Below, in pieces: positions 1 through 25,606 of a stretch of DNA of 40,357 nt (positions are counted from its first letter, which is position 1; each line of letters starts with the position of its first letter). Both the position numbers and the translations under genes were made by a program. The notes under the pieces are model-generated. The model did no database searches. It saw nothing but the letters and a program-made list of their open reading frames with translations, and was not told the DNA's origin. The DNA comes from an uncultured Gemmatimonadota bacterium (GTDB lineage Bacteria > Gemmatimonadota > Gemmatimonadetes > Gemmatimonadales > Gemmatimonadaceae): positions 1 through 40,357 of the forward strand of contig CAIUOO010000482.1 of the NCBI GenBank assembly GCA_903900795.1, given 5' to 3'.

Positions 1-129
1 CCCGAAGGTTAGGCGGCGAGCGCGAGGTTGTTGTTCGCGATTGGAATTTTCCCGAGTGTTTTACCAGGTGCTCGAGGACCTGGGCACGCAACCAGAGCTT
101 CACCAACCCCGTCGAAGCCAGTCACCCCC
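1..129 (-). ncRNA. ssrA: tmRNA (10Sa RNA), 5' portion, cut by left window edge
   Basis: Read on the minus strand from about base 129, the sequence opens with a G-rich acceptor strand followed by GACTGGCTTCGACGGGG. This is the conserved 5' signature of tmRNA, whose family form is a GG-run, then GA...GGNTTCGACGGG. A helix with CCAGGT/ACCTGG arms follows, then an A-rich stretch, then an mRNA-like reading frame ending in TAA at 11-9. The tag reading frame and its ALAA-type end confirm the identity. tmRNA with SmpB rescues ribosomes stalled on broken messages and tags the nascent chain for proteolysis. The 3' part (pseudoknots, T arm, CCA end) lies beyond base 1. The 5' end is approximate because the mature end is made by RNase P. 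No convincing promoter was recognised in 130-213. I am confident of the identity and less sure of the exact 5' base. Confidence 0.93.
9..38 (-). other. tmRNA tag-peptide reading frame
   Basis: The minus-strand codons GCG AAC AAC AAC CTC GCG CTC GCC GCC TAA encode ANNNLALAA. With the alanine carried by tmRNA itself, the full tag would be AANNNLALAA. The resume codon is inferred to be GCG at 38-36, by alignment with the E. coli layout in which GCA follows a short UAGUC-like stretch (here CAAUC). The C-terminal ALAA is the usual ClpXP/ClpAP recognition end. The three consecutive Asn codons replace the acidic residues of the E. coli tag. Confidence 0.85.
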
Positions 130-23682: not shown

Positions 23683-23711
23683 CTGCTGAATAGCCTCATG
23701 AGAACGCAAAT

Positions 23712-23740
23712 CGCGCGGGAGGCATGACTGCCCCCGCGCG
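23712..23740 (-). terminator. Strong hairpin between rpsO and pnp (attenuator/RNase processing site)
   Basis: CGCGCGGG pairs with CCCGCGCG (8 bp). After one bulged A, GGCA pairs with TGCC around a TGAC loop, giving a 12-bp stem. It lies between the rpsO stop (23761) and the pnp start. Only a short ATTT follows on the minus strand, so it may be a partial terminator. In E. coli a hairpin at the same place is cut by RNase III and is the target of PNPase autocontrol, and an equivalent role here is an inference. Confidence 0.65.
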
Positions 23741-23760
23741 ACGACATGGCGTGGTCCGAC

Positions 23761-24021
23761 TTAGTATCGGAGACCAAGGTCCTGCACGAGCGTGCGATAC
23801 TGCTGCACGTCCGTACGCTTCAGATAGTCGAGCAGGCGGCGACGCTTGCCCACCATCTTGAGTAGCCCGCGGCGACCATGATGGTCCTTCGCGTGCGTAC
23901 GAAAGTGTCCCGTGAGGTAGTTGATGCGATCCGTAAGGATGGCAACCTGAACCCGGGTCGATCCGGTGTCCACATCGTGGGACCGGTACTTGTCGATCGT
24001 GAGTGCCTTATCGAACGCCAT
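23761..24021 (-). CDS. rpsO: 30S ribosomal protein S15
   Basis: Primary 16S rRNA-binding protein of the small subunit platform; 86 residues, typical length. The conserved blocks [37 protein letters not shown] and [15 protein letters not shown] cover the whole protein. ATG 24021 (MAFDKALT) is chosen by family fit, with a GAGA-like element about 12 bases upstream. A 43-codon open extension 5' runs through the promoter region and is not coding. S15 commonly represses its own mRNA; no leader structure was assigned with confidence. Confidence 0.97.
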
Positions 24022-24086
24022 CGTCGTAATATTCTCAGCGCGTGTCGTGCGCAGCCTTTTGTGCGCGCAATAGTAGGAAGAATAAT

Positions 24087-24115
24087 AGATTAGTCCGTCT
24101 TGCCCCGCCTGTAAA
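24087..24115 (-). promoter_or_regulatory. Possible sigma70-type promoter of rpsO-pnp
   Basis: On the minus strand TTTACA (24115-24110, five of six to TTGACA) is followed after 17 bases by TAATCT (24092-24087). An overlapping AT-rich TATTAT (24087-24082) is an alternative -10 with a longer spacer. The site is about 65 bases upstream of the rpsO ATG and in the only AT-rich patch of this gap. It overlaps the ribosome-binding region of the plus-strand kinase remnant. Confidence 0.45.
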
Positions 24116-24125
24116 GGACCTGTAC

Positions 24126-24321
24126 GTGCCTGAGCGCTATTTGGGGCCAAGAATCGGCAAATACCAAGTGACCGGCATCTCGGTTCGGGCGCCTTCTCAG
24201 GGGTATACGAGGCGATCGACCAGGCGTTAGAGGCGGTGGTCGCCCTGAAAATCCTACGGCTGGATTTTCAGGGACAGGGGCCCGCTGAAGTCCGCTTCCG
24301 TCGAGAAGCGGGCACCGCGGC
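24126..24321 (+). pseudogene. Ser/Thr protein kinase remnant: N-lobe only, frameshifted and truncated
   Basis: From a GTG at 24126, with AAAGGA seven bases upstream, the frame reads [17 protein letters not shown], the usual opening of a Pkn/PASTA-type kinase. After ATC at 24177 the frame must shift by one base (a single base lost near 24179). It then reads [17 protein letters not shown], the glycine-rich ATP loop, and [13 protein letters not shown] with the ATP-binding Lys at 24247-24249. GPAEVRFRREAGTAA follows, with the helix-C Glu. Kinase similarity then stops: there is no HRD catalytic loop, no DFG and no membrane segment before the convergent rseP end at 24422. The 100 bases 24322-24421 show nothing recognisable. 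An eroded gene is the simplest reading; a sequencing error would explain only the frameshift, not the truncation. Confidence 0.8.
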
Positions 24322-24421
24322 GACGCAAGGCCGATCGAAAACCGTTTCGTGCCCCACCACGGCGGTGCTGTCGTCACCGGCAACGATCTCGAAACGCGCG
24401 GCGACCGTGGCGTGCATCGAC

Positions 24422-25606
24422 TCAGTTCGTGAAGAGATTGCGCAGATCATTGAACGTGACGAGCACGATCAAGGCCAGCACGGCCAGGACGCCAACACGG
24501 GCAAAGCCCTCGCGCACGCGACCACTGAACGCGCTACCCTTCACGCGCTCGGCCAGCACCAACAGGATCTGTCCGCCGTCGAGCACCGGAATCGGGACGA
24601 GATTCAGAATGGCGATGTTAAGGCTGAGGAAAGCGATCAACGACCACAGTGTTTCCGAACCGCGCTTCGCCGCCTGCACCGACGTGCGCGCGATCTGAAT
24701 TGGCCCCCCAAGATTCTTGGCCGACACTTCTCCGGACACCAACCCGCCGAGTACGGACGCGACACTCGTCGCCATACGCCACGTCGCCTCTCCACCCGCC
24801 GACATCGACTCGACGAAGCTCAGTGTCTCATTAACCGTTGACGCGCGGACCTGAACGCCGATCCGGCCAACGGTCCTCTTGCCTCCAGTTACCGGATCGT
24901 CGATTTCCGCCGTCTGCGGCGTAATGTCCTTCGTGAAGCGCACGTCGCCGCGCTGAATCTCGACGCGCAGTGTGCCGGACGTCACCGGAGCCACGGCGTC
25001 GAGCACCTCGTCCCACGCTCGGATCGGATGGCCGTTAATCCCCACGATGCGATCACCGCCAGTAAGTCCGGCGACGGCCGCCGGTGCCCCGGCTACGACC
25101 GAATCGATCACCGCCGGCACGTAGGTGTTGCCCGCGCGATAGTAGATGCCGGTGGATACGACGAGCGTGAGCAGGATGTTCATGATCACACCCGCCGACA
25201 GAATAAACACACGGGCGAACGTCGATTTGTTCTCCACCCAGCGGTCGGCCGGCACGGCCTTGGGGCCGAACGGAGCCATCGATTCATCGTCCCACAATGC
25301 AGGGGACACATCAGCGGGGCGCTCGATCGCCGCGCCGAGTGAGCCGCGATCACTCCCGCCTTCGATGCCTGCCATCGACTCATCATCCCGGCTCGCCATC
25401 CGCACGAACCCGCCGAGCGGGATCAGCGACACGCGATAATCCGTCTCTCCGCGGCGCACGCCGAATAGCCGGTTGCCCCATCCGAGCGAGAAGACGGGCG
25501 CATAGACGCCGGTGAGCTTGGCGGCGAGGAAGTGCCCGAGCTCGTGCACAAAAACGACCAGGCCGAAGACGAGCAACGGCGCGATGTACGGTGTAATCGA
25601 GGACAT
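24422..25606 (-). CDS. rseP: RseP/site-2 family intramembrane metalloprotease
   Basis: Inner-membrane zinc protease of regulated intramembrane proteolysis, for example release of sigma factors from anti-sigma proteins. 394 residues. The zinc motif HELGH is at residues 21-25 in the first membrane helix. A PDZ domain spans about 160-240 (AGAPAAVAGLTGGDRIVGINGHPI across its ligand loop). The second active-site motif NLVPIPVLDGGQ is near residue 340, with a final hydrophobic helix. Between GGFVRM (about 70) and the second helix lies an acidic insert in which DDESMA occurs twice (74-79 and 106-111). ATG 25606 lies five bases after the dxr stop, the common dxr-rseP pairing. Confidence 0.95.
   Translation of the reverse strand: MSSITPYIAPLLVFGLVVFVHELGHFLAAKLTGVYAPVFSLGWGNRLFGVRRGETDYRVSLIPLGGFVRMASRDDESMAGIEGGSDRGSLGAAIERPADVSPALWDDESMAPFGPKAVPADRWVENKSTFARVFILSAGVIMNILLTLVVSTGIYYRAGNTYVPAVIDSVVAGAPAAVAGLTGGDRIVGINGHPIRAWDEVLDAVAPVTSGTLRVEIQRGDVRFTKDITPQTAEIDDPVTGGKRTVGRIGVQVRASTVNETLSFVESMSAGGEATWRMATSVASVLGGLVSGEVSAKNLGGPIQIARTSVQAAKRGSETLWSLIAFLSLNIAILNLVPIPVLDGGQILLVLAERVKGSAFSGRVREGFARVGVLAVLALIVLVTFNDLRNLFTN

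Follow-up and report, generated by a model that had tools for sequence, protein, structure and literature searches.

Positions 24126–24421 of the window, the whole stretch of 40,357 nt that was analysed from an uncultured Gemmatimonadota bacterium, are almost certainly a two-gene graveyard. A kinase gene and a small envelope-protein gene have decayed there, and with them any pathway that they formed has gone from the lineage. The rpsO–rseP junction that holds the remains is 400 nt long, and both flanking genes lie on the minus strand (Table 1). What remains at 24126–24321 is the 5′ end of a gene for a PknB-like Ser/Thr kinase. As a pseudogene it is of a familiar, ordinary type; of greater interest is the pair that this kinase formed with the envelope protein, which is unstudied. 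To the initial annotation, which had described a truncated kinase, we add the missed neighbour gene, its repeated loss together with the kinase, and a likely promoter overlap. Below, G000 denotes the genome of the window, G001 onward the compared genomes, and L numbers denote loci. At the window edge, a partial tmRNA was also recorded (1–129, minus strand; Rfam RF00023, 56 bits).

Table 1 Features of the rpsO–rseP junction in the window
Feature	Position	Strand	Basis
rpsO (ribosomal protein S15), intact left flank	23764..24021	-	PF00312, E=2.9e-34
Candidate rpsO -10 box TAATCT, 17 nt from -35	24087..24092	-	TAANNT at the same spacing in 25/28 genus loci; mean column conservation 0.90
Candidate rpsO -35 box TTTACA	24110..24115	-	Invariant in 28/28 genus loci; overlaps the dead kinase's ribosome-binding site
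Former kinase ribosome-binding site AAAGGA	24113..24118	+	Sequence; overlaps candidate rpsO -35 box
Start (GTG) and first frame of kinase pseudogene, 15 residues	24126..24171	+	Translation; codon comparison with relatives
One-base loss in C run	24171..24173	+	Aligned to 6 relatives that have the kinase
Second frame of kinase pseudogene, with glycine loop, VALK and helix-C Glu	24172..24321	+	Partial PF00069 match; breakpoints
Envelope-protein gene remnant, 3′ part, after ~1.56 kb deletion	24330..24364	-	83% to G026 1863-1897
Envelope-protein gene remnant, middle (ARFEI.DDSTA region), after ~0.19 kb deletion	24361..24402	-	88% to G026 2091-2132
Envelope-protein gene remnant, start (ATG at 24417), after ~0.11 kb deletion	24394..24421	-	86% to G026 2244-2271
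rseP (site-2 protease), intact right flank	24422..25606	-	PF02163, E=4.3e-58, and PDZ

The ribosome-binding site, GTG and lost base of the initial annotation are all present: AAAGGA precedes a GTG at 24126, a one-base shift of frame follows near 24171, and the second frame runs on to ...RFRREAGTAA. The second-frame translation also bears out the intact glycine loop, VALK (ATP) lysine and helix-C glutamate, which were checked against the invariant columns of the full-length family and which we take to have the roles known for kinases in general. Kinase homology stops at 24321, and no HRD catalytic loop or DFG follows the stump, in agreement with the view that only the N-lobe survives; from 24330 the window matches an envelope-protein gene, not a kinase. 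Against PF00069, the second frame aligned at profile positions 4–49 (E = 7.7e-4, 19.4 bits) and missed the curated cut-off of 31.7. Taken by itself, without relatives, the window sequence is no more than suggestive of kinase identity. Synteny with kinase-bearing relatives settles that identity. Bases 1–300 of the junction are 82–85% identical to the same place in the four nearest of them (G002, G004, G026, G027) and 73–76% identical in two further ones (G022, G023). The G002 kinase reaches the PF00069 gathering score over residues 13–266 (156 bits, E=1.6e-45), with HRDIKPDN and DFG present.

The genus set comprised 30 genomes including that of the window, and the junction flanks were found in 28 (G016 and G024 gave nothing). 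A full kinase of about 530–600 aa occupies the junction in 20 of the 28, which supports the earlier proposal that a full kinase once sat here. Two others carry a kinase split over two contigs (G004, G019), and one (G026, L041) has full-length content with the frame broken midway. The kinase is lost in the remaining five, whose junctions have collapsed to 400 nt (G000), 372 nt (G005), 299 nt (G007), 174 nt (G028) and 124 nt (G011). Part of its front survives in G007 and G005, and no recognisable stump was found in G028 or G011. Both genes are gone in each of the five: the envelope-protein gene was not found in G000 or in the other four. In NSHR01000001.1 (Gemmatimonadetes bacterium Baikal-G1, L068), which is probably the G007 contig, the stump lies between rseP and rpsO. 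The frame break in G026 may be a sequencing error or the beginning of a sixth loss.

The region after the N-lobe, where the initial annotation saw nothing, holds the scrambled remains of the second, minus-strand gene (24330–24421). Aligned to G026, the window junction falls into four blocks (1–300/1–301, 309–343/1863–1897, 340–381/2091–2132 and 373–400/2244–2271), the last three of which lie within the small gene of G026 (about 1815–2267). The block positions therefore define three deletions in the window, of about 1,561, 193 and 111 bases, which removed the kinase remainder and most of the small gene. The blocks flanking the second and third deletions share 4 and 9 bases, an imperfect overlap of the kind expected from microhomology; at the first, 8 bases are assigned to neither block.

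All 23 kinase-bearing junctions of the genus contain a small minus-strand ORF between the kinase and rseP, about 130–170 aa long by script-chosen start codons. A hydrophobic segment at the N-terminus, in most cases a Cys, the conserved core RIPRDAxRFEID..DSTA..F and a C-terminal segment rich in glycine characterize its product; a simple lipobox pattern occurs in 15 of the 23 (with the same script-chosen starts). No match to the G004 protein was found in Pfam (E≤1) or NCBIfam (E≤0.01), and a profile search of solved-structure sequences gave none at E≤1. A distant relative in L074 is without a lipobox and carries an Ala-Gln-Ala stretch after the hydrophobic segment. Predicted alone, this protein has six strands at a mean pLDDT of 62.8, with blocks of residues 11–80 at 68–85. 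Foldseek returned no match to the model at E≤0.001, and the best solved-structure matches were barrel domains of rotary ATPases (Z up to 8.4), a common arrangement from which no function is drawn. The small gene of one distant genome (L208, G159) has an in-frame TAG. The gap that separates the kinase from the small gene tends to take up insertions and holds an open frame of 718–776 aa in L225 (G002), L231 (G009) and L233 (G001); the G002 frame is of sigma-54-activator type and scores under every NCBIfam cut-off shown.

Substitutions in the stump point to relaxed constraint. Against the codon consensus of G002, G004, G026 and G027 over 63 codons, the window stump has 21 nonsynonymous and 14 synonymous changes and the G007 stump 18 and 10, compared with 18 and 43 when the four kinase-bearing genes are each set against the other three and pooled (Fisher p = 0.005 for G000, 0.003 for G007); the test is rough, mixing shared and private changes, and G026, one of its references, is itself frame-broken further on. 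The counts run against purifying selection on the short ORF, which the initial annotation had named as one finding that would tell against decay. Identity of the G000 N-lobe to the four relatives is 77–81%, against 92% between G004 and G026; the corresponding figures for the 3′ half of rseP are 81–90% and 87%, and leader identity to the relatives stays at 92–95%. By a rough estimate, the ratio of nonsynonymous to synonymous rates is 0.135 in the relatives and 0.48 in G000, corresponding to around 40% of the lineage spent unconstrained. Given the N-lobe divergence, the three accumulated deletions and this estimate, the pseudogene is not very recent, and the earlier impression of recent decay is poorly supported.

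These substitutions also weigh on the view that the kinase is intact and the contig misjoined, or otherwise in error, which we regard as very unlikely. The assembly does invite it, being a draft of 580 contigs with 5.28% contamination; moreover, all five loss genomes are fragmented drafts (two of them about 57–59% complete), whereas the three single-contig genomes keep the kinase. Yet an assembly error would leave unexplained the relaxed substitutions across the remaining N-lobe, three separate deletions, and the four other genomes whose junctions collapsed at different breakpoints. It would also leave the second gene absent and the kinase without an orthologue elsewhere in the genome: with all 37 candidates in G000 scored, the best of 11 kinase matches reached 246 bits and none E≤1e-110, where orthologues in G001–G003 score 884–908 bits, and neither the kinase nor the small gene was found at another place in G000.

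The apparent ribosome-binding site is present as first annotated, with the correction that a candidate rpsO -35 box coincides in part with it: read on the plus strand, the bases of TTTACA are TGTAAAGGA, the ribosome-binding site of the kinase. Mean column conservation beside the invariant TTTACA is 0.70 just upstream and 0.72 in the spacer. The -10 hexamers that depart from TAANNT in the genus (3 of 28) read TTAGCT or TAAATA, and the 17-nt spacing is constant in all. G028 and G011 have lost the kinase entirely yet retain TTTACA, and AAAGGA is also kept there, or nearly so. It is mainly these two genomes that make the motif a candidate rpsO promoter; a scan of 23700–24500 with a generic promoter consensus gave no promoter-like site.

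Outside the genus, the motif occurs in 34 of 39 stretches upstream of rpsO. Together with a suitable -10, it is present at 32 of 34 loci that have a kinase, and the remaining two carry forms with one mismatch and an unchanged 17-nt spacing. Of the 5 kinase-less loci, 2 (L073, L106) have it; because of this difference, it could partly track the kinase's own start signals. In the kinase-less L070, L071 and L072 it was not found even with one mismatch allowed; in these three, rseP neighbours rpsO on the same strand, so transcription of rpsO may come from upstream. The rpsO-side edge of the stump was most likely preserved owing to the candidate rpsO promoter there. Given the overlap, the ribosome-binding site says little about the age of the kinase's death. 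More generally, the promoter of a neighbour may keep a dead gene's ‘ribosome-binding site’ intact, so that the decay seems younger than it is.

This overlap bears on a further reading, that the stump is kept for a new function as a short peptide or RNA. The N-lobe is still readable, AAAGGA–GTG is preserved, and G007 and G005 likewise retain some of the kinase front. However, AAAGGA overlaps the -35 candidate and persists, or nearly so, in kinase-less G028 and G011, which are themselves without a recognisable stump, and the coding part has diverged (77–81% against 92%) with an excess of nonsynonymous change; we consider retention for a new role highly improbable. That a stray kinase copy was inserted here is barely credible: the genome does hold 11 other kinase-domain matches at E≤1e-10, but the stump's best DNA match in its own genome is itself (the next scores 34.6 bits), and synteny contradicts the idea, the match being to the orthologue at the same junction in relatives.

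To place the losses, we used a tree of pnp, rpsO, rseP, dxr, cdsA and uppS proteins from 31 genomes, three of them outgroups, on which the five fall on separate tips. G011 is basal in the genus, G005 is sister to G014 and G021 (100), G028 adjoins the window clade (80), G007 is sister to kinase-bearing G004 (100), and G000 groups with G026 and G027 at low support (56). For G011 a primary absence is possible; a loss is simpler because the pair is present in other genera. G000 (24171–24173) and G007 (L043) each lack one base from the same C run of the kinase start. A single event behind these two losses, which the shared base loss and a few shared stump bases would suggest, was rejected, as G007 groups with G004 (100). 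The N-lobe of G007 is 89.8% identical to that of G004 and 76.9% to that of G000. At two-against-two sites from rseP to uppS, G000 pairs with G026 150 times, with G004 20 times and with G007 10 times; within the N-lobe itself the counts are only 5, 2 and 3, which is thin evidence there. We attribute the shared base loss to parallel slippage.

The five losers also have fewer PF00069 matches per completeness than the 23 keepers (8.5–30.2 against 12.0–63.5; Mann–Whitney p = 0.008; G016 and G024 excluded, as the junction was not found), in a comparison that ignores relatedness. Keepers near the window are low as well (10–15 matches in G022, G023, G026 and G027), and we treat the difference as a lead only. 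Kinase-domain matches number 8–15 each in G000, G007, G022, G023, G026, G027 and G028, compared with as many as 59 in other members of the genus; within the window's own clade, G004 (18) and G002 (50) have more. Shrinkage of the kinome in the window clade is possible, with completeness differing between genomes.

Across 179 genomes of the family, a kinase orthologue (E≤1e-110) was found in at least 59, from 16 of 35 genera, scoring the best 8 first-look candidates per genome, and the small gene in at least 62, from 18 of 35 genera, scoring the best 22. Among scored candidates, 57 genomes have both genes, 2 the kinase only, 5 the small gene only and 115 neither. In the small-gene-only genomes (G044, G049, G081, G097, G111), a kinase fragment (27–252 bits) next to the small gene is cut off where the contig stops. 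In the kinase-only genomes (G079 and G151, 72 and 95% complete), the kinase is truncated by the end of its contig, and no small gene was found elsewhere. No family genome clearly has one gene without the other, G151 being less certain.

The order rpsO–kinase–small gene–rseP holds in 25 of 39 loci outside the genus; 7 others hold a kinase fragment abutting the edge of a contig, and the remaining 7 have no kinase in the stretch. For the last group, the kinase lies about 4.4–4.5 kb away on the same contig in G073, G075 and G077, and on another contig in G095, G098, G099 and G100. Three members of another genus (L255–L257) carry about 4.4–4.5 kb of other sequence between kinase and small gene. Since the two genes are convergent and do not form an operon, yet are kept and lost jointly, a shared task is hinted at; the plain alternative is that they are neighbours. 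Their coupling rests on the co-occurrence of neighbours, and a single deletion can take both. A search of the non-subscription literature found no title on the kinase locus, and passages of PMC8547001 and PMC10581226 contain nothing on it.

The ancestral order was rpsO(-), kinase(+), small envelope protein(-) and rseP(-). The ancestral kinase combined a cytoplasmic PknB-like domain, one hydrophobic segment and a conserved C-terminal domain that we take to be extracytoplasmic. In this lineage the kinase lost one base in the C run, and a deletion took everything past helix C. The same deletion and two more reduced the envelope-protein gene to three fragments, leaving a remnant that is no longer translatable as a kinase. 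The two lost genes presumably worked together, with the kinase's outer domain receiving a signal from the envelope protein; a likely, if unproven, mechanism is that this protein gated the outer part and thereby the kinase. Tentatively, and with the balance tilted somewhat against it, the pair could be an undescribed envelope-sensing module of Gemmatimonadaceae. In such a module, a small β-barrel envelope protein would report to the outer domain of a PknB-like kinase, the two being inherited and lost as a unit at the rpsO–rseP junction and repeatedly discarded where the kinase set shrinks. The five separate-tip losses, beside species that keep the pair, form a natural deletion series and thus a route to the function of the kinase and its partner.

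Among known systems, the kinase resembles the PknB/StkP-type membrane Ser/Thr kinases. The kinase domain of the orthologues matches StkP/PknB structures (E down to 3.5e-65, profile positions 10–298), and 13 of 14 orthologues have a hydrophobic segment near residue 303–345 followed by a further C-terminal domain, which is conserved and contains invariant cysteines. Unlike these enzymes, the G002 kinase has no PASTA repeats (Pfam scan, E≤1) and scores 304.1 bits against the equivalog cut-off of 450 for the PASTA kinase PknB/Stk1 (NF033483), and the window copy is broken. For the pair as a whole, the comparison in principle is with QseG, a lipoprotein modulating the sensor kinase QseE in the periplasm (PMC6075780). 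QseE, in contrast, is a histidine kinase, and no sequence relation is claimed; the likeness is a working analogy only, in which a small envelope protein stands beside a membrane kinase with an outer domain.
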